62,174 nt of DNA, taken from Bacillota bacterium. GTDB lineage: Bacteria > Bacillota > Sulfobacillia > Symbiobacteriales > Symbiobacteriaceae. A program made the position numbers and the translations under genes. The DNA is taken from positions 1 to 62,174 of the forward strand of contig JAMNXV010000169.1 of assembly GCA_023623185.1 (NCBI GenBank), written 5' to 3'. Below, piece after piece: positions 5,650 to 23,602 of this stretch. The first letter of the stretch is position 1. Each line of letters opens with the position of its first letter. Below the pieces are notes generated by a model. That model was not told the DNA's origin. It worked only from the letters and a program-made list of their open reading frames with translations, and ran no database searches.

Positions 5650-6549
5650 ATGACAGCACAGATCCGATTCGGCGTCTGGTGGCGCATGCTGCGCCCCTTC
5701 ACCCTGGTGGCCAGCGTGGCCCCGGTGCTGGGCGGCACCGCGCTGGCGTACGCGCATGGCGGCTTTCACGCCGGCCGCTTCCTGGCCTTCCTGCTGGCGG
5801 CGGTGCTGATTCAGTCCGCCACCAATATGTTTAATGAGTACTTTGATTATGTGCGTGGGCTGGACACCCGCGATCACGTGGGCATCGCGGGCACGATCGT
5901 CCGCGACGGCGTCTCGCCCCGGCTCGTCATCGCGCTGGCCTGGATCTTCCTGGCGACGGCAGTGGCGCTGGGGCTCTACATCGCGGCCACCAGCTCCTGG
6001 TGGGTCTTCGCCGTGGGCCTGCTCTGCCTGGGCGTCGCCTACATCTATTCCGGCGGCCCGGTGCCGCTCTCTTCCACCCCCTTCGGTGAGCTCGCGGCCG
6101 GCTTCACCATGGGCCCGGTCATGATCCTGCTGGTCTACTACACGCAGACCCTGCGGCTGACCGCTTCCGCCCTGTGGGTGGCGGTGCCCATCGGCCTCCT
6201 GATCGGCGCGATCCTGCTGGCCAACAACATCCGCGACATCGAGGCCGACCGGGCCGGCGGCCGCCACACCCTGCCCATCATGCTCGGGCGGCAGGCCGCG
6301 GTGGGCGTCCTCGCCGGCAGCTTCGTCCTGGCCTACGGCATCACCCTGGGCCTGGTGGCGGCCGGGCGGCTCACCCCGTGGGCCCTGCTGATCCTCCTGT
6401 CGCTGCCCCGGGCCTGGCGGCCGGTGCGGCTCTTCCTCAGGGAGCGGGAGCAGGTCCGGCTGCACCCGGCCGTGAAGGGCGTGGCGCAGCTGCTGGCGGG
6501 CTTCGGCGGGCTGCTTGCGCTGGGGCTGCTGCTCTCGGTCTGGGTATGA
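5650..6549 (+). CDS. menA: 1,4-dihydroxy-2-naphthoate polyprenyltransferase MenA (UbiA family)
   Basis: A 299-residue polytopic membrane enzyme that prenylates dihydroxynaphthoate in menaquinone synthesis. It has the two Asp-rich UbiA motifs, NMFNEYFDYVRGLDT and NNIRDIEADRAGGRHT, the second in the form typical of MenA rather than UbiA, and about eight or nine hydrophobic spans. The ribosome site AAGAAGGAG sits 7 bases before the ATG. It is monocistronic with its own promoter and a terminator; the other men genes are not nearby. Confidence 0.9.
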   Translation: MTAQIRFGVWWRMLRPFTLVASVAPVLGGTALAYAHGGFHAGRFLAFLLAAVLIQSATNMFNEYFDYVRGLDTRDHVGIAGTIVRDGVSPRLVIALAWIFLATAVALGLYIAATSSWWVFAVGLLCLGVAYIYSGGPVPLSSTPFGELAAGFTMGPVMILLVYYTQTLRLTASALWVAVPIGLLIGAILLANNIRDIEADRAGGRHTLPIMLGRQAAVGVLAGSFVLAYGITLGLVAAGRLTPWALLILLSLPRAWRPVRLFLREREQVRLHPAVKGVAQLLAGFGGLLALGLLLSVWV

Positions 6550-6578
6550 CCGTCCAGTTCGTAGTTCTTTGCTGACGG

Positions 6579-6608
6579 ATCGGCGCCGGGGCTTTTCCCG
6601 GCGCCGAT
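6579..6608. terminator. Bidirectional terminator between menA and the lipoprotein gene
   Basis: A perfect 12-bp stem (ATCGGCGCCGGG / CCCGGCGCCGAT) around GCTTTT, lying between two convergent stop codons. Confidence 0.7.
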
Positions 6609-6621
6609 TACGATTTCCCCG

Positions 6622-7299
6622 TCAGTCCTCGATCTCCTGAGCCGCCTCGTCATCCGCGGGCGGCTCGACCCATGTAATCGACCGTGCGACGGCCTCGAAG
6701 ACCGGCCGGTAGTCGTCAAACGTCCACACCGGCGCCGTACCGTGCAGCACGTAGGCGACCTCCTCGCGCACCAGGACAACCCGGTAGACCCGCGCCTCGC
6801 CCTTCAGGCCGGTGAAGCGGTCGACCAGCCAGCGGCCCTCGGCGCCCGAGATGGTGATGTCGCCGCTCTCCAGCGTCTCCGTATCCGGATAGCGGTTGCG
6901 CACCTCCTCAGCCAGGGCCTCGGCGTACCTGTCCGGCGTGAGGTCCTCAAACTGGTCGTCGGCGGTGACCAGGATGTTCTCCCGGAAGAAGTCCTCCTCC
7001 CCCCGCTGCGGGCTGATCATCGCCACCACGGCGTCCTCCAGCGGGTAGACCGCCCACCCCTCGGGCACGCCGAGCGTGAGGCCGGTCGCGGGGTGGCTGT
7101 AGATCAGCGTCAGCAGGGGCTCCTCATCGTCGGATTCGCCGTCTTCGGAACCGGGCGGCTCGCTCTCGGCCCCGGCCTGGTCGGCCCTGGCCGGGTCAGT
7201 GCCTGCGGACGGCGCCTGCGACCGGGGCCCGCCGCAGCCCGCTACGGCGATGAGCAGGAGGGCGAGCAGGGGCGCGAGGAGCCGCAGCCTCCGGCGCAT
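6622..7299 (-). CDS. Lipoprotein with PsbP/DcrB-like domain
   Basis: A 225-residue protein with a clear lipoprotein signal ending in AVAGC. An acidic Ser/Glu linker of about 45 residues precedes a C-terminal domain (about 70-215) that reads like the PsbP/DcrB (DUF1795) fold: the segment FSHPATGLTL-like strand, VPEGWAVYPLEDAVVAMISP, and a final hydrophobic helix. No catalytic motif is visible. It probably has a surface role of unknown nature. The gene stands alone between the menA terminator and the divergent amidase gene. Confidence 0.6.
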   Translation of the reverse strand: MRRRLRLLAPLLALLLIAVAGCGGPRSQAPSAGTDPARADQAGAESEPPGSEDGESDDEEPLLTLIYSHPATGLTLGVPEGWAVYPLEDAVVAMISPQRGEEDFFRENILVTADDQFEDLTPDRYAEALAEEVRNRYPDTETLESGDITISGAEGRWLVDRFTGLKGEARVYRVVLVREEVAYVLHGTAPVWTFDDYRPVFEAVARSITWVEPPADDEAAQEIED

Positions 7300-7492
7300 G
7301 GGAACCCTCCCTTCCTTCGGACTGCAGCAGACTCCTACTCTTGTTCTCCCCGTCCCGGCGGCACTCCTTCACACATAGACATTCTCGCAGCAGTCCACAG
7401 ACGACAGTCGACATTTTTCCTGTCAGAGTATTGATTATTCTGAAACATTGCTGTACAACTTCCCTACATCAAGCCGAAAGGGAGGGTTCGAC

Positions 7493-8896
7493 ATGCGTAC
7501 ACGTCGAGGTCTGGGTTTCCTGGTGCTTCTGCTCTTCCTGTTCAGCCTGGTGGGGACCAGCTTTGCGGCGTCGGAGGAGTTCGAGCGGGGCAACCGGCTG
7601 GATGGCCCGATGGGACAAGCCTTTCGGAAGGCGGCGGAGGCCTACGGGGTGCCGGTGGAGCTCCTGGTGGCGCTCGCCTACGCCGAGACGCGCCTGGATG
7701 ACCACGACGGCGTGCCCAGCGTGGCCGGGGGCTACGGCGTGATGCACCTGGTCTCCAACCCAGAGGTAACCACGCTGGAGAAGGCCGCTGGCCTCACGGG
7801 GCTCGACCCCGGGCAGCTGAAGACCGACACTGCGGCCAACATCATGGGCGGCGCGGCCCTGCTCGCCAGCTATGCGGCCGACCTGGGGCATGCCGTGAAG
7901 GCCATGGAACCCGGCGACTGGTTCGAGGCGGTGGCCCGGTACAGCCAGCTCGAAGGGGCGGCGGCCCGGGACTACGCCCTCCAGGTGTATGAGTTCCTGA
8001 ACCGGGGGATCGACGTGGAGGTGGACGGCGAGGAGATCCGCATCGAGCCGCAGGCCGTGGAGCCCGACCTGGGCGAGTACGCGAACCTGGTCACCATCCA
8101 GTCGCAGGACTACGGTCCCGCCGCCTGGGTGCCGGCCCACTCCTCCAACTACACCGCTTCCAACCGGCCCAGCAGCTACCCCATCCGCTACATCGTCATC
8201 CACGTGACCCAGGGCTCCTACGCCGGGGCCATCAGCTGGTTCCAGAACCCCAGCTCCAACGTGAGCGCCCACTACGTCATCCGCTCCAGCGACGGGGCGA
8301 TCACGCAGATGGTGCGTGAAAAGGACATCGCGTGGCACGCCGGCAACTGGACGTACAACACGCAGTCCATCGGCATCGAACACGAGGGCTGGGTGTCCAA
8401 CTGCACCTGGTTCACCGACGCCATGTACCGCGCCAGCGCGGCGCTCGCCCGCAACATCGCCCTGAAGTACGGCATCCCGATGAACCGCAACCACATCATC
8501 GGCCACAACGAGGTGCCGGGGGCCACGCACACGGACCCGGGCAGCTGCTGGGACTGGAACTACTACATGAGCCTGGTCACCCAGTCCTCCGGCTCCTGGT
8601 CCGCCATCGTGGACAACACCACCAGCGGCCGCTTCCGGGCGAGCAGCAACTGGGGCACCTCCTCCTGGTCCAGCCAGCGCTACGGCAGCAACTACCGGTT
8701 CGCCAACCCGGCGCCGGTCAGCGACGCCGCCTACTACAAGTTCAACATCCCGAGCACCGGCAACTACGACATCTACATGTGGTACCCGGCCAACAGCGGC
8801 TACAACGACAAGACTCCGGTGGTGATCTGGCAGGCCAACAGCAACAACTGGGCACCTTCCGGCTGCTGGCGGGCGACCGTGAAATCATCGCCGTGA
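7493..8896 (+). CDS. Lysozyme-like / N-acetylmuramoyl-L-alanine amidase fusion, C-terminus frameshifted
   Basis: An exported cell-wall hydrolase. Residues 1-24 are a Sec signal peptide. Residues about 35-150 resemble a lytic-transglycosylase-like domain (AYAETRLDDHDG, GGYGVMHLV). The middle is an Amidase_2 domain with zinc-ligand motifs IRYIVIHVTQG, IGIEHEG and the TDPGSCWDW segment. The C-terminus begins a golvesin/xylan-lyase-like beta domain (YDIYMWYPANSGYNDKTPVV) but is cut off near residue 455. The expected remainder lies in another frame up to 8958. Start chosen for the AAGGGAGGG site and signal peptide. Confidence 0.82.
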   Translation: MRTRRGLGFLVLLLFLFSLVGTSFAASEEFERGNRLDGPMGQAFRKAAEAYGVPVELLVALAYAETRLDDHDGVPSVAGGYGVMHLVSNPEVTTLEKAAGLTGLDPGQLKTDTAANIMGGAALLASYAADLGHAVKAMEPGDWFEAVARYSQLEGAAARDYALQVYEFLNRGIDVEVDGEEIRIEPQAVEPDLGEYANLVTIQSQDYGPAAWVPAHSSNYTASNRPSSYPIRYIVIHVTQGSYAGAISWFQNPSSNVSAHYVIRSSDGAITQMVREKDIAWHAGNWTYNTQSIGIEHEGWVSNCTWFTDAMYRASAALARNIALKYGIPMNRNHIIGHNEVPGATHTDPGSCWDWNYYMSLVTQSSGSWSAIVDNTTSGRFRASSNWGTSSWSSQRYGSNYRFANPAPVSDAAYYKFNIPSTGNYDIYMWYPANSGYNDKTPVVIWQANSNNWAPSGCWRATVKSSP

Positions 8897-8958
8897 GCCG
8901 ATGGACCAACGGCACGGGTTACGTGATCGCCGACGCGTTCCGGGTGGTGCGGAAGTAA
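8848..8958 (+). other. Out-of-frame tail of the amidase C-terminal domain
   Basis: Read one frame away from the amidase, these bases give LGTFRLLAGDREIIAVSRW and then GYVIADAFRVVRK, the normal ending of golvesin-type domains, followed by a TAA. One base gained or two lost near 8845-8855 explains it. Confidence 0.7.
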
Positions 8959-8987
8959 CTTCTTGTCGGTCCCTAGTGGTACCAAAG

Positions 8988-9022
8988 GGGAGAAGCGGTG
9001 CGTAGAGCCCACCGCTTCTCCC
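8988..9022. terminator. Terminator-like hairpin between the amidase and ietS
   Basis: A perfect 13-bp stem (GGGAGAAGCGGTG / CACCGCTTCTCCC) with a 9-base loop, lying between convergent genes at the left edge of the low-G+C island. Confidence 0.65.
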
Positions 9023-9042
9023 AAAGGCCATATCACATGTCG

Positions 9043-11523
9043 TTAGCCTTGAGTGGCAACCTGCACTGGTACCTGAATCTTGTTCACGACCGGAGTGTAA
9101 ATATCTACACTCTGCTCGGGCGTACTGATGGTAACGATCAGGCTGTAACGAGCAAGGCGGTTCCACTTACCAAGGTAAGCTCTTTCCCGCCACCAGCCCA
9201 CGATTGGGTAGATTGCGATTGCGTTTGAGCTGGCCAACTCTTGCGGGGTACCGATCCAGATATCGGAGTGAATGGACCCGCGGTTACGTTGCTCAGGGCC
9301 AATAACCCAGTGACGCGACGCGCTTCTAGAGGGGGGTAATCCATCGTCCTCTTCTCGTGCCGCTCTGTTGATACGGCGTTGAAACTGCAAGAGGTTTTCG
9401 GTTGGTGCTTTGATATCGAACCGCAGTCCATGAGATGCATAGCGATACCGATCTTTCCAGCCAACTTGTCCAGGGCTTGGCTCGATGAAGTATGACAGGG
9501 TTATCCTCATTCTGACCTCGATTTCCGACGGGAGGGCCTGAAGCACCTCCTTTGGCCAAGGTAGTTCGTAAATATGCATTTCCTTAGTCCTATACCCACC
9601 ACCTGGCCGTCGGTCAAAGGGTTGAATTTGATTTTGCACGATCATCGTTAACGAATTGGTGGCACTTTGAACTGCTCTCTCCAAGCTAGGTACACCGTAA
9701 CCACAGATCCGTAATAGCCGACCGTATGAACTTTTCCTTTGGTCACGTAGGAACTGTTCGCGCATCGCGTCAGTCCATTCTGCGGAATGTATCATGAGTG
9801 CACGAACAGTCTCAGGCCACGCCTGGGGATATCGGGACTGTATCTGAGCAGCTAACCACGATGCTTCCGCAGTTGCTGCGCTGGTCATCTGGAAATCCCA
9901 AAACAAGGCCACATCAGGGCGGTAATTTGTGGATAGCAGTGACAGGTCATCACATCTTGTTGCAAATCCACTACTGTCAATAGCTAGATTGCCGCCCTCC
10001 ATCACTATATCTGGCTTCACAGGCCATCTATAGTCCCAGTCTATCGATGTAGTGGTAAAAGGCGATACTTGGCCGCGCCGCGCGACGGCGGTGAAGCCTC
10101 TTAGTGCTGGCGACCGAATTGCATCCAGTTGCGTGTAGGCCCCCACTGTGACGACATTCCATGCTTGTCCAGGATCGTGGATGGAATCGGTCAGGTTCGC
10201 GTCAGGATAAGTGTTGGCTACCAATTGCTCATCTCGGGCGTTGCCTGCAGCTACGATAATTAACCTTGAGCGAATCCCTTCCTCGTGGTCGCCGACAGCT
10301 AGTTGGTCCAGTGCACCTGACCAGGAACTTGGACGTCCCCGGTCCCTGGTGTCGTCAGCCGATACCGCCATGCACACTACTCTGTTTCGATATGGCGCTT
10401 GAATCTCGACACGGCTGATGGCCTGGGACGTGACATGTCCCCAAAGACTAGGCTTGTTCACCCCCGGCGGTGGCGGAAGTATTTTTACTGACTCCAAGCA
10501 ATGGCTGAGTACGACGGGACTCCTATCCTCCAGTTTTTGGCGCAGGTTCCCGTATGCTGCAATACCAGCCATGAGAGTGCCATGACCGTGGTGGTCGTAG
10601 GCTCCCCAAGAGGGATCGACAGACATACAGTCTGCATCCTGCATGATTGGCTGAAGAAGAGGATGCCCGGAGTTGACGCCCGTATCCAATATGCACACAG
10701 AGGTGGAATCGGCGTCTCGAACTTCAATGCGAGATTGTAGATCTTTCACCCAGTCCGCTTGGTCCTTGTTTTCGAGTTCTAGCCAAAAGGCGGCTGTCTC
10801 TTTTGCCAACCGTAACTCCGCTACGTCGTCGGAGAGCCTTATGATGTTTTCGAGATCGTACTTGTTAGCGTGTACGAGAGTTACTGTCCGCTCCGGGAAT
10901 ACCAGGCGTCGATCAGCAGAATCAAGTTGTAGGGTTCTTAACAGTCCTGTAAAGCGATTGACAGCCTCGGCTGTATCACTGCTTAGCCATACTTCACACC
11001 ACTTCTTTTCCTCCTCCGGGAGCAAAGACGGATCATCTTGCCAAAAGGAGATGAGCACGGCTTTTCGAATGTCCGAAATACTACTGATTAAGTCAGCATA
11101 CTTGGGCCTGCCACTCCGAGTTACTTCGCTGGCAAACGCCTCTATCTTGTTTAAGAAAAACCGTCTTTTCTCGTTGTCCACATACACTGTTGCATACGTG
11201 ACGGTGTCGTTGCCCTCTCTGGCGACCCTAATATTGAGCAACCGCACCTTCTTTGAACGCATGTCTTCTAGACCCTTGGTGATCAGATCATATCCCGGCT
11301 CGCCTTTAACCTCTATGTATAAACCAGAGCGCGAAGCCTGAGCAACGGCGTGTTCACGTTCAGCCGCCGCCCAGGCTTCTTCAAATCTACGAGCTAGATA
11401 AGCGCTATGATCTTGCGGATTTCTGTTAGGGATTCGAGGCTTAACCGGTCTTGCGGGCGCAGCAAACTCAGTCACAGTCGGAGCGGTAGTAATGAAAAGG
11501 TGCGGTAATGCGTCCCGTGCCAT
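9043..11523 (-). CDS. ietS: IetS-like S8 (subtilisin-like) anti-phage protease
   Basis: An 826-residue serine protease with no signal peptide, so probably cytoplasmic. An unrecognised N-terminal domain of about 270 residues precedes the subtilase core. The catalytic set is visible: Asp280 in ILDTGVNSGHP, His314 in HHGHGTLMAG, oxyanion Asn428 in IIVAAGN, and Ser548 in FQMTSAATAEAS. About 250 further residues follow. The start overlaps the ietA stop as TAATG, implying translational coupling. An AAA ATPase next to a large S8 protease is the known layout of the IetAS phage-defence system. Codon use and base composition are clearly less G+C-rich than in the flanks, fitting horizontal acquisition. 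Confidence 0.8.
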   Translation of the reverse strand: MARDALPHLFITTAPTVTEFAAPARPVKPRIPNRNPQDHSAYLARRFEEAWAAAEREHAVAQASRSGLYIEVKGEPGYDLITKGLEDMRSKKVRLLNIRVAREGNDTVTYATVYVDNEKRRFFLNKIEAFASEVTRSGRPKYADLISSISDIRKAVLISFWQDDPSLLPEEEKKWCEVWLSSDTAEAVNRFTGLLRTLQLDSADRRLVFPERTVTLVHANKYDLENIIRLSDDVAELRLAKETAAFWLELENKDQADWVKDLQSRIEVRDADSTSVCILDTGVNSGHPLLQPIMQDADCMSVDPSWGAYDHHGHGTLMAGIAAYGNLRQKLEDRSPVVLSHCLESVKILPPPPGVNKPSLWGHVTSQAISRVEIQAPYRNRVVCMAVSADDTRDRGRPSSWSGALDQLAVGDHEEGIRSRLIIVAAGNARDEQLVANTYPDANLTDSIHDPGQAWNVVTVGAYTQLDAIRSPALRGFTAVARRGQVSPFTTTSIDWDYRWPVKPDIVMEGGNLAIDSSGFATRCDDLSLLSTNYRPDVALFWDFQMTSAATAEASWLAAQIQSRYPQAWPETVRALMIHSAEWTDAMREQFLRDQRKSSYGRLLRICGYGVPSLERAVQSATNSLTMIVQNQIQPFDRRPGGGYRTKEMHIYELPWPKEVLQALPSEIEVRMRITLSYFIEPSPGQVGWKDRYRYASHGLRFDIKAPTENLLQFQRRINRAAREEDDGLPPSRSASRHWVIGPEQRNRGSIHSDIWIGTPQELASSNAIAIYPIVGWWRERAYLGKWNRLARYSLIVTISTPEQSVDIYTPVVNKIQVPVQVATQG

Positions 11524-12494
11524 TACTCACCATAGCCTCCCCTGTTGCCGAGATATGCTCCGTGACGTTCTCTAAGCATGGTCACCAAGCTCTGCGACTC
11601 CACCGTGTGCTTGTCGCTTAGGATAGCCTCTTTGATTGCATCCCTGCAAGCCCGGTCGATCTCAGCATGGCTAAGTCCTGCCGAAACTTCGACAGCCTTG
11701 TCAAGATCTAGAGTCTCATCATAATACGTTCCTAGAACGTTTAACATCAACCGGCTACGTTCCTTCTCACTCGGTAGGCCATAGTAAAGCACGTCGTCAA
11801 ACCGCCGAAACAGGGCGGCATCCAGCAGCTGCGGAGTATTCGTAGCAGCGACAATCAGATTGTCCGAGACGTCGTTCTCAATGAACTGTAAGAAAGCCGC
11901 AACTACACGGCGCATCTCGCCCACATCGTTGTCCAGAGTTCTGTCTCCACCAATGGCATCGAACTCGTCAAACAGATACACCCCTGGCACTTCGCGTACG
12001 CGGTCAAAAATCTGCCTCAGTTTTGCACTGGTCTCTCCCATGAACTTCGTGATCAAACGGTCCATTTGAATTGTGTGCAGGGGCTGTCTGAGCTCCCACG
12101 CAAGTACCTTGGCAGTCATCGTCTTACCAGTCCCTGGTGCGCCCGCAAGCAGTATCTTGCGCCTATGACTGAGACCATGACTCTTCAGTTTGGTCCTCTG
12201 GTAATACTCAAGAATGATGCGTTGTATGCGGTCCTTTGTTGCATCATCCAAGACGAGGGCATGGAAGGGCACGTCAGGATGTTCAGTGATCACCAGCCCG
12301 CTAAGATCGGCCGGAAGTTTGATCACAACCGGAGTCCTTGCCTTGTCCACAAGTCGGCGGATTTCGTGAGCTAGCTGAGTATGGCCCTGCCGAGCCTCGT
12401 GAGCGGCCACTTGAAGAGCAGTAGTAATAAACAAGTCACGATCATCCTCAAGATGAGAGCGAATCAAGGCCTTAATCTGCTCAGCAGTTGCCAT
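11523..12494 (-). CDS. ietA: IetA-like AAA+ ATPase of a two-gene defence system
   Basis: A 323-residue AAA+ ATPase. Walker A is GAPGTGKT (118-125), Walker B is VYLFDEFD with Asp176/Glu177, sensor 1 is Asn219 in AATNT, and the arginine finger is in ALFRRFD (Arg230/231). The 110-residue N-terminal helical region may contact the partner protease. Its stop codon overlaps the ietS start by one base. In the IetAS family the ATPase and protease are both needed for defence; the trigger and target are not visible here. Composition is as low in G+C as ietS. Confidence 0.8.
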   Translation of the reverse strand: MATAEQIKALIRSHLEDDRDLFITTALQVAAHEARQGHTQLAHEIRRLVDKARTPVVIKLPADLSGLVITEHPDVPFHALVLDDATKDRIQRIILEYYQRTKLKSHGLSHRRKILLAGAPGTGKTMTAKVLAWELRQPLHTIQMDRLITKFMGETSAKLRQIFDRVREVPGVYLFDEFDAIGGDRTLDNDVGEMRRVVAAFLQFIENDVSDNLIVAATNTPQLLDAALFRRFDDVLYYGLPSEKERSRLMLNVLGTYYDETLDLDKAVEVSAGLSHAEIDRACRDAIKEAILSDKHTVESQSLVTMLRERHGAYLGNRGGYGE

Positions 12495-12523
12495 CCCAGC
12501 ATCACTCCCCCCGTCTTACAGTA

Positions 12524-12529
12524 ATTATA
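12524..12529 (-). promoter_or_regulatory. Candidate -10 element for ietAS
   Basis: On the minus strand TATAAT lies 29 bases upstream of the ietA start, with GGGGGAG as the ribosome site. No good -35 hexamer is seen at 17 bp. A perfect TTGACA lies farther upstream at 12610-12605 but has no matching -10. Confidence 0.4.
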
Positions 12530-12629
12530 ACCAAGTTCAACCTGGACTGTGCTCACTCCTTCGTTGGAAGACAGCCATGCACAACTTCCTCACATGATAT
12601 GATGTGTCAACCGAAAGTCTCGTGTGACG

Positions 12630-12648
12630 GGGCGGCCTTCGGCCGCCC
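12630..12648 (-). terminator. Hairpin downstream of gatD
   Basis: Stem GGGCGGCC / GGCCGCCC with a 3-base loop, 62 bp after the gatD stop. There is no T run, so it is a weak terminator or an mRNA 3' stabiliser. It marks the right edge of the low-G+C island. Confidence 0.45.
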
Positions 12649-12709
12649 TTCCACCTCTCTCCCCCAGACCGGAGAACACCAGCCAGAAAGACCAATTCAT
12701 GAGCTCTGC

Positions 12710-13411
12710 TCACTTCCCAAACCTGGCGATGATGGCCTCGTGTGCCCGCATCTCCAGGTCGTCGTTCAGGGCTCCGATCTTCACCTGGCCGCCGTAGCGC
12801 CGGTCCAGGGCCCGCTGGATCAGGAGGTAGGTGCCCACGGTGCTCTTGTAGACGACCCCTTCCGTCCTGTCCGCCCCGTTGTTGCCGTACCCCTTCAGCA
12901 CCCGCCCCAGAGGGCGGAGTCCCTTGCCCAGGTAGGTGCGCCCGGAGTGGTTCTCAAACCCGACGATGGTGCGCGTGCCCTCGAACAGATCGCTCTCGAT
13001 GACACAGTTGCCGATCATGCGCTCCCGGCCGGCTTCGGTCCAGAGGTCAAGGATGCCGCTGAAGCGGATCAGCTCGCCCGTGTGGGTCTTGAAGTACTTG
13101 CCCAGCATCTGGTACCCGCCGCAGACCGCCAGCACCGCCAGGCCGTCCTCGATGGCCTCGGCCAGCGGCCGCGCCTTCACCCGCACGAAGTCCTCGGCAA
13201 CGAGGGCCTGCTCCCGGTCCTGCCCGCCGCCGATCACCAGCAGGTCGAACCGGGCGAAGTCGGCCGACTCGCCCATCCGCACCTGGGTGACCTCCGGGTC
13301 CAGGCCGTGCCAGCGGGAGCGCTGGGTGAGAACGATGATGTTGCCCCGGTCGCCGTAGAGGTTCATATACTCCGGATAGAGCCAGCCGATGTGAATGCGG
13401 GGGCGCTCCAC
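12710..13411 (-). CDS. gatD: Lipid II isoglutaminyl synthase, glutaminase subunit GatD, lacking the catalytic His segment
   Basis: A 233-residue class-I glutamine amidotransferase that should supply ammonia to MurT for amidating the D-Glu of lipid II. The nucleophile Cys97 sits in AVCGGYQ, and GFENHSGRTYLG and GYGNNG match GatD. Family members then read GTYLHGP plus about ten residues; here GTYL (to residue 196) runs straight into LIQRALDRRYGG. About 14 residues, including the catalytic His of the HGP motif, are missing in frame. The gene follows murT with a 2-base gap. The family call is firm, but glutaminase activity is doubtful. Confidence 0.88.
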   Translation of the reverse strand: MERPRIHIGWLYPEYMNLYGDRGNIIVLTQRSRWHGLDPEVTQVRMGESADFARFDLLVIGGGQDREQALVAEDFVRVKARPLAEAIEDGLAVLAVCGGYQMLGKYFKTHTGELIRFSGILDLWTEAGRERMIGNCVIESDLFEGTRTIVGFENHSGRTYLGKGLRPLGRVLKGYGNNGADRTEGVVYKSTVGTYLLIQRALDRRYGGQVKIGALNDDLEMRAHEAIIARFGK

Positions 13412-17905: not shown

Positions 17906-18085
17906 CCGCGAGCAGTGAACCGAAAGTGGTGCAGAGCGCAGCGAGGACCTGGAGGGCCTGATCGGGCTTCCAGGTCACGCTTGTCTTTCGAGGAGAGGCA
18001 TCGGTCCGAGATTTGTCGGACCCACGCTGGGCCGGGCCTTTGCTCAGGTCTCGGATGGACGCTGCACGCGCCCGGCACCCGACTT

Positions 18086-18660
18086 CTTCATGCTTCAACC
18101 GCCGGGGCACCGAATCGCGCAGCTGGCCAAGTGCGGCGATTTTCAACTTCACCCACGAGCGAAGTGGAAATCGGCCGCAGTTCGAACCCCGCGCCCGATG
18201 CTTCATGCTTCAACCACCCCGTGCAGCGTCGTGCAGCCGGCCAAACGCGGCGATTTTCGACTTCGCCCACGAGCCAAGTGGAAATCGGCCGCAGTTCGAA
18301 CCCCGCGCCCGATGCTTCATGCTTCAACCACCCCGTGCAGCGTCGGGCAGCCGACCAAGTGCGGCCATTTTTGACTTCACCCACGAGCCAAGTGGAAATC
18401 GGCCGCAGGTCGAACCCGGTACCAGACTCCTTCATGCTTCAACCGCCCGGTGCAGCATCGCGCGACCCGGCAAGTGCGGCGAGTTTCAACTTCGCCCACG
18501 AGCCAAGTGGAAATCGGCCGCAGTTCGAACCCCGCGCCCGATGCTTCATGCTTCAACCACCCCGTGCAGCGTCGCACAGCCGGCCAAGTGCGGCGATTTT
18601 CGACTTCACCCACGAGCCAAGTGGAAATCGGCCGCAGTTGGAACCCGCCACCCGCTGCGC
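18086..18660. repeat. Five tandem copies of a 114/115-bp repeat
   Basis: Copies begin at 18086, 18201, 18315, 18430 and 18544 with CTTCATGCTTCAACC, so the period alternates 115, 114, 115, 114. A 19-base block, AAGTGGAAATCGGCCGCAG, is identical in all five. Each copy has an imperfect stem-loop, for example CGATTTTCGACTT at 18251 with AAGTGGAAATCG at 18276-18287. Because 115 is not a multiple of three the frame changes between copies, so it is not a protein repeat. There are no unique spacers, so it is not a CRISPR array. The flanks to 17906 and from 18661 hold no gene. Confidence 0.85.
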
Positions 18661-22084: not shown

Positions 22085-22482
22085 TCTGGGCTGTGGGCGG
22101 TGGGTTTTCGCAGCGGGCAGTGGGATGTGAGCTGAGAGGGGCAGTGGCATGTGAGCTGTGAGAGGGGCAGCGGGTTGCTGGTGGTGATTGGTGTCCGGCG
22201 GTGGGCAGGTATGCGCTGACCCAGCTTGCACAGTGTGAAACCAGGACGCCTCGTTCACGGCGTCCTGGTTTCAGCGCTTCCCGGGGGCGTCACGCCTGGC
22301 CCGGCCGTGGCGCGGGCTCGTAAGGAAGATCGTGCCACATGCGGACCACCGTTCTCGGGCCGATCGTGATCGTTCTTGACTATATCTCCCGGGGGTGCGG
22401 CGCAGGAAGGCCCTTCGAGCCCGCTCTCGAATGCGGGTGGTAAGGCAGCATGGCGTATCGGCAGGCGCCCGGGCCGCGCAGT
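22085..22482. other. 398-bp gene-free region with GTG-rich repeat and hairpin
   Basis: The first 120 bp are degenerate repeats of the type GGGCGGTGGG / GATGTGAGCTGAGAGGGGCAG. A perfect 14-bp stem-loop (GAAACCAGGACGCC / GGCGTCCTGGTTTC) follows at 22237-22272 and probably ends the upstream transcript. I see nothing recognisable from 22273 to 22482. Confidence 0.55.
22237..22272. terminator. Terminator-like hairpin after the coiled-coil gene
   Basis: Perfect 14-bp stem with an 8-base loop, between convergent genes; no T run beyond the TTTC at the stem base. Confidence 0.55.
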
Positions 22483-23472
22483 CTAATCTGCATTCAGTAA
22501 GCGGTACGGCACGACCATCACCCTATCCGCCTGCACCACGAGGAGGGCGCTGCCGGTCAGCCGCACGTTCAGGATCTCGCCCTGCAGGCGCCACGACACC
22601 CGGTCGCCCGTCAGGTGGTTCTCAGCCGTCACCGTCGCATCGCTGACGGTGACCGTGGTGACGGCGTCGTCCGATACAGCCAGCAGCGGCGTCTCCAGCG
22701 GCAGCCGGAAACGGGGGCCGCTGTCATCCTGCAGCGAGCGCAGGACGTTCGCCTCCAAGCCGGAATCCCTTAGTTCCACCACAGCGTATGCGGGGCCTCG
22801 GGGGCTACAGATCAGCGAGACGGGCTCCGCGTCTTCGGGCAGCCTGTAGAAGAGCTGGGGCGTGCCCGCGTCGGGGTGGCCGAGGATCGGCCGGTCAAGC
22901 CACTGGGTCACCAGGACAACCGCGTACGGGCGCCACGGCTGGTCCAGCCACGGCGGGACGATCATCTCCTCCCACTGCATCGGGGTCAGGTTCCCCGCGA
23001 AGCGCTCCAGGCAGCGGTGTCGGGATGGTAGGCGACGCCCGCAGGCGATCCGGCCGGATCGGCAACCGCCAGCAGGGTGCCGGGACCAAGGCCTCCACCG
23101 GGTCGTCTGGACGAAGGCCCGGTAGCCCGGCTTCCCGGCGTCCGGGTACGTGTCCCTGTTGACCAAGAGCCAGAAGGCGAGTTGCGTCCGATACTCCGGA
23201 TGCCGCACGGCCACCTCGGCGGCACAGCGCAGAAGCTCGTCACCCGTCGCCTGCTTCAGACGGCGGATGTCCTCCCCAAACCCGCCTGTGCACGCCGGCG
23301 ACATTGCCGCCGATGCCGGGTCGGGAGGGGTGCCGGAAGCTCCGTCGTAAGGCGGACTTGCCGCGACCGACGCTGCAGGGTCCGGTTCGGCCGCCCGCTC
23401 GGCGGCGGGACCGCTGCTACAGGCCGCACAGAGCAGGGAGACGAGCAGAAAGGCCACCACATCTCGGCGCAT
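22483..23472 (-). CDS. Hypothetical lipoprotein, middle segment probably out of frame
   Basis: A 329-residue open frame with a lipoprotein signal (LLCAAC) and GGAGGG 6 bases before the ATG at 23472; the longest frame starts farther upstream at 23514. Residues up to about 122 (AFVQTT) and from about 152 (LERFAGNLTPMQWEEMI) look like normal protein. Between them the text is Arg/Trp/Cys-rich (WRPWSRHPAGGCRSGRIACG), whereas another frame gives GPGTLLAVADPAGSPAGVAY. This suggests two compensating small indels. I recognise no family; the C-terminal part is beta-rich. It may still make a full-length protein. Confidence 0.55.
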   Translation of the reverse strand: MRRDVVAFLLVSLLCAACSSGPAAERAAEPDPAASVAASPPYDGASGTPPDPASAAMSPACTGGFGEDIRRLKQATGDELLRCAAEVAVRHPEYRTQLAFWLLVNRDTYPDAGKPGYRAFVQTTRWRPWSRHPAGGCRSGRIACGRRLPSRHRCLERFAGNLTPMQWEEMIVPPWLDQPWRPYAVVLVTQWLDRPILGHPDAGTPQLFYRLPEDAEPVSLICSPRGPAYAVVELRDSGLEANVLRSLQDDSGPRFRLPLETPLLAVSDDAVTTVTVSDATVTAENHLTGDRVSWRLQGEILNVRLTGSALLVVQADRVMVVPYRLLNAD

Positions 23473-23602
23473 GGGATACCCTCCGTACGCAATATACCGC
23501 CTATTCGGCCACACCGCTTGACTCGCTCCACACGCCAGAAGTTCCGCACCGGGGGAGCCGCCGGAGGAGCCGGCTCAACCCCCGGCGGCTTGCAGAACAC
23601 AA

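Follow-up and report, generated by a model that had tools for sequence, protein, structure and literature searches.

The window, a stretch of 62,174 nucleotides from a genome assembly of 3.40 Mb (226 contigs, estimated 88% complete), contains two adjacent genes on the minus strand, both assigned from their ORFs and profile matches. ietA (11523–12494) encodes an AAA+ ATPase of 323 aa, and ietS (9043–11523) encodes an intracellular S8 (subtilisin-like) protease of 826 aa. The genes overlap by one base (TAATG), with ietA preceding ietS on the same strand, which is the arrangement expected of an IetAS pair; both ORFs lie where the original prediction had described overlapping AAA+ ATPase and 826-residue S8 protease genes. 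A 13-bp perfect hairpin (8988–9022), located between the converging ends of the amidase gene and ietS, is likely to be their shared terminator. The leader of ietA (12495–12709, minus strand) contains a purine-rich ribosome-binding stretch and a TATAAT-like box at about 12526–12531, which was read by eye as a putative promoter and was not called by a consensus promoter scan. A G+C hairpin follows gatD at 12630–12648. In addition, an imperfect palindrome, CACAT-6-ATGTG (12591–12606), is situated about 100 bp upstream of ietA and is a possible operator.

The G+C content falls to about 0.50–0.56 over 9000–12500, compared with 0.64–0.74 in the flanks. Each of the two genes has a G+C content of 0.523, and the predicted contrast between roughly half and two thirds G+C was thus reproduced both in the genes (52% in the pair versus 66–70% in the flanks) and in sliding windows. 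The difference is sharper at third codon positions, where values of 0.525 and 0.559 for the pair are far outside the range of the adjoining annotated genes (0.91–0.93 in gatD, murT and the amidase gene), composition and codon usage being compared with genes inside the window.

As originally described, the pair is placed between a cell-wall amidase gene and murT–gatD, and these flanking genes neighbour each other in two genomes of the same genus, from whose junctions the pair is absent. In one of them (G002), a complete single-contig genome of 3,566,135 bases that runs collinear with the greater part of the window, the homology to the amidase gene and that to gatD are separated by 51 bp, compared with 3757 bp in the window; this comparison defines the inserted interval as 8953–12709. 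In the other (G001), the two genes are separated by 711 bp carrying an unrelated 189-aa ORF. A search of 101 related genomes revealed an IetS relative in four, namely the window's own and three others of the same class, and in no other genome of the same genus or family. Hence, the relatives present an empty site instead of syntenic orthologues of normal composition, and, combined with the foreign composition of the pair, this is the pattern of a genomic island. Judged from sequence, the pair is a horizontally acquired low-G+C island, and IetAS is here a chromosomal, isolated and ordinary member of a widespread family.

The ends of the island are unmarked, as had been claimed: no integrase occurs among the ORFs of 8953–12709, neither att-like direct repeats nor a genuine tRNA was found at the interval ends, and no mobile-element remnants adjoin the pair inside the interval. 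An integrase- or tRNA-linked island was considered and has no support. The single, doubtful tRNA-SeC call (18455–18545) falls within, and is produced by, an array of about five tandem 114-bp units (18071–18646), and Rfam reported no RNA gene. The array occurs at one place in the genome, and the corresponding interval is much shorter in G002. Elsewhere in the window, a segment of about 1.5 kb at 22100–23600 has no alignment in either same-genus genome.

Deletions are present in both flanking genes, each about 110 bp from an end of the island. The amidase gene lacks 64 bp at 8842–8845 relative to both same-genus genomes, which shifts the frame within the Golvesin C-terminal domain, so that the annotated ORF ends at 8896 while the original reading frame would end at 8958. 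In gatD (12710–13411), 42 bp present in both relatives are missing at 12825, corresponding to 14 codons (HGSILPKNPHLADW in G001) that include a histidine which we take to be catalytic in GatD; this gap is either a real loss or an assembly fault. The two deletions could reflect faults of assembly or scars left by the insertion, and their proximity to the ends renders the assembly quality there uncertain. Nevertheless, the joins are supported, because the flank between each deletion and the junction still matches the genus.

The family assignment of the original prediction was borne out. The PADLOC profiles match the two neighbouring proteins with 4.2e-72 (IetA) and 1.3e-39 (IetS), and direct comparison with the pTiC58 pair (NC_003065.3, 97873–101373) revealed near full-length homology, with 50% identity over residues 1–313 of IetA and 40% over residues 6–816 of IetS. 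The label of an anti-phage defence module fared less well, since the family is confirmed while the pair scores far below the curated anti-phage cut-offs NF042956 and NF042959 (48.4 of 900 and 212.4 of 510 bits) and its closest tested relatives are toxin–antitoxin systems. The pTiC58 pair misses the same cut-offs (39.9 and 198.8 bits); both pairs therefore fall outside the branch behind these models, and 'defence module' is a transferred label. By comparison, a locus from the same class (L039) fits the PADLOC model PDLC02198 fully, with 778 bits as opposed to 134 for the window IetS, to which its IetS is about 25% identical. Sequence comparison thus places the pair in the pTiC58/SgiAT branch of IetAS. 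SgiAT of SGI1 is a functional toxin–antitoxin system with a protease toxin and an ATPase antitoxin; it is most like the pTiC58 system, at 50% and 36% identity to pTiC58 IetA and IetS, respectively (PMC5006074). The same article, citing Yamamoto et al. 2009 (J Bacteriol 191:4656), presents pTiC58 IetAS as a toxin–antitoxin system that stabilises its element.

The predicted catalytic motifs are all present. IetA retains Walker A (G118–T125), Walker B (D176/E177) and the arginine residues, and IetS retains the S8 triad and the oxyanion Asn (D280, H314, N428 and S548). The IetA model (mean pLDDT 91.1) comprises an N-terminal three-helix unit (4–52), in a region where Pfam has no significant family, followed by one AAA module; its best fold matches are proteasome ATPases, PAN, p97, FtsH and Vps4, which suggests that the module belongs to the p97/PAN/FtsH/Vps4 group. 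In the IetS model (mean pLDDT 89.8), residues 174–239, directly before the catalytic domain, are predicted to form a beta-alpha-beta-beta-alpha-beta arrangement. Pro-subtilisins are the best fold matches, and their alignments exceed the catalytic domain in length; in a PDB sequence search, solved subtilisins are matched in the catalytic core only. From the model and its fold matches, residues 174–239 may form a ferredoxin-like unit resembling a subtilisin propeptide, in a region that has no Pfam match. The N-terminal domain of about 270 residues, which had been called unrecognised, accordingly keeps that status in Pfam, where residues 1–270 match no propeptide or other family, but part of it resembles a pro-subtilisin propeptide in the model. 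The C-terminal region of IetS has no significant Pfam family, and no signal peptide was seen by eye.

Relatives occur across many phyla. An alignment scan of genome contigs returned 579 of them and one of virus-like contigs 39, whereas a single-sequence scan of the genome contigs gave no match; tblastn identified 489 plasmid records with relatives. Of the 126 fetched loci, 119 have ietA immediately upstream of ietS. The remaining seven have an ietS that starts at or close to a contig edge, and in one of these (L097) the end of ietA can be read. The four catalytic IetS residues are invariant (108/108), as is the aromatic character (F or Y; F151 in the window) of the IetA pore-loop residue (116/116). 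The distances of IetA and IetS are correlated with r = 0.90, a value inflated by common descent, compared with at most 0.14 in 500 shuffles. The window IetS, to which the best relative is 58% identical, groups in the tree with Thermodesulfobacteriota, Campylobacterota and Verrucomicrobiota, among others, and is separated from the Bacillota rows. Across all groups, the tree requires the phylum label to change 34 times, which fits wide horizontal spread of IetAS, bearing in mind that bins can be contaminated. One locus from the same class (L038, genome G043, 5904–8190) has ietA followed by an ietS that runs for 430 residues before a stop and is probably a broken copy. Two loci (L111 and L112) in Planctomycetaceae- and Rhodobacteraceae-named bins of one metagenome (S141) encode an identical IetS and are thus likely to represent a misbinned contig. 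Type I restriction-modification subunits are the commonest defence matches among 149 neighbouring ORFs at 24 loci, in a handful of members, an association that is suggestive only.

We favour, with a probability of roughly 0.65, a horizontally acquired IetAS of the pTiC58/SgiAT branch in which the ATPase IetA restrains the toxic protease IetS. The observations beneath it are the homology of both proteins, their catalytic residues, the gene order and the empty site in two same-genus relatives; the mechanism is extended by analogy. Free IetS would be a toxic cytoplasmic subtilisin, which IetA, as a p97/PAN-type ring driven by ATP, would bind and hold inactive, and IetS probably has its own propeptide-like brake beside the active site. 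If IetA were lost or diverted, through loss of the locus or take-over by a phage, the freed IetS would cut cell proteins and growth would stop. Such an arrest would stabilise the carrier element and could abort phage infection. The toxin–antitoxin reading draws on the pTiC58 homology, the tested relatives, the gene order, the invariant catalytic residues, the distance correlation, the pore aromatic, the empty site, the foreign composition and the plasmid carriage of relatives, whereas the chromosomal, isolated position and the lack of plasmid or integrase genes that could be stabilised speak against stabilisation here. A tentative and rather improbable elaboration regards IetS as a cytoplasmic zymogen-like suicide protease, whose propeptide-like unit would be opened or kept shut by the IetA ring; we know of no toxin–antitoxin system for which subtilisin self-inhibition joined to AAA+ threading is established.

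The alternatives differ in what the pair does and in why it was kept. IetA might unfold substrates such as phage proteins and thread them into IetS, like PAN–proteasome or ClpXP, and its nearest neighbours in fold and sequence are indeed the substrate-threading motors p97, PAN and FtsH, with an invariantly aromatic pore residue. Such a feeder does not predict, however, that the protease alone is toxic and is neutralised by the ATPase, as described for both tested relatives (pTiC58 and SGI1) in the source cited above; these count against it in its simple form, and we consider it unlikely. The housekeeping pair, to which generic AAA and subtilase domains might point, is ruled out by the empty site and the absence from close relatives, to which the foreign composition, the occurrence in four of 101 genomes (the window's own included) and the PADLOC matches add.

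Selection may have acted on anti-phage defence, achieved through toxin–antitoxin behaviour (abortive infection); this reading is a serious contender that falls a little short of even odds. The PADLOC matches of both proteins agree with it, some sampled relatives are near Type I restriction-modification genes, and NCBIfam model naming calls distant IetAS homologues anti-phage, an activity that Gao et al. reportedly observed in 2020 for such homologues. Against this stand the low scores with the curated models, a branch with only about 25% identity to the window IetS, and immediate neighbours among which no defence gene was noted. It is also possible, though less probable, that the pair is a selfish stabilisation module stranded in the chromosome by the decay of a mobile element. 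The plasmid-rich distribution of the relatives, the foreign composition with the empty site, and the broken copy in the same class would suit such a remnant; ietA and ietS are both intact here, however, and the inserted interval lacks element remnants. Under the favoured toxin–antitoxin reading, element stability and phage defence are not mutually exclusive as selected functions, and defence by this pair is plausible by analogy.

The two-gene IetAS module is already known, and the window pair adds one member. With it, the pTiC58 branch reaches a high-G+C lineage, probably Symbiobacterium, in which a clean empty site is available for comparison. It also illustrates that members of this branch owe their anti-phage labels to distant relatives. 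Additionally, the predicted propeptide-like unit of IetS offers a testable idea for how an intracellular subtilisin toxin may be restrained.

Among known systems, the pro-subtilisins ProN-Tk-SP (PDB 3afg) and pro-subtilisin E (3whi) share with the IetS model a propeptide-like unit followed by the catalytic domain; they are secreted, whereas IetS shows no signal peptide by eye, and it has about 170 further N-terminal residues. Anti-phage IetAS, represented by NF042956/NF042959 and the PADLOC IetS/IetA profiles, is likewise an AAA and S8 pair with significant matches, from which the window pair is set apart by the curated NCBIfam cut-offs. The sgiAT system, placed beside the window pair through the reported identities, combines an AAA antitoxin with a subtilisin toxin and diverges from pTiC58 to a similar degree, but is carried on an integrative mobilisable element. 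The pTiC58 ietAS pair is plasmid-borne, in contrast to the chromosomal, isolated pair described here, with which it shares gene order, near full-length homology and equally weak scores against the anti-phage models.
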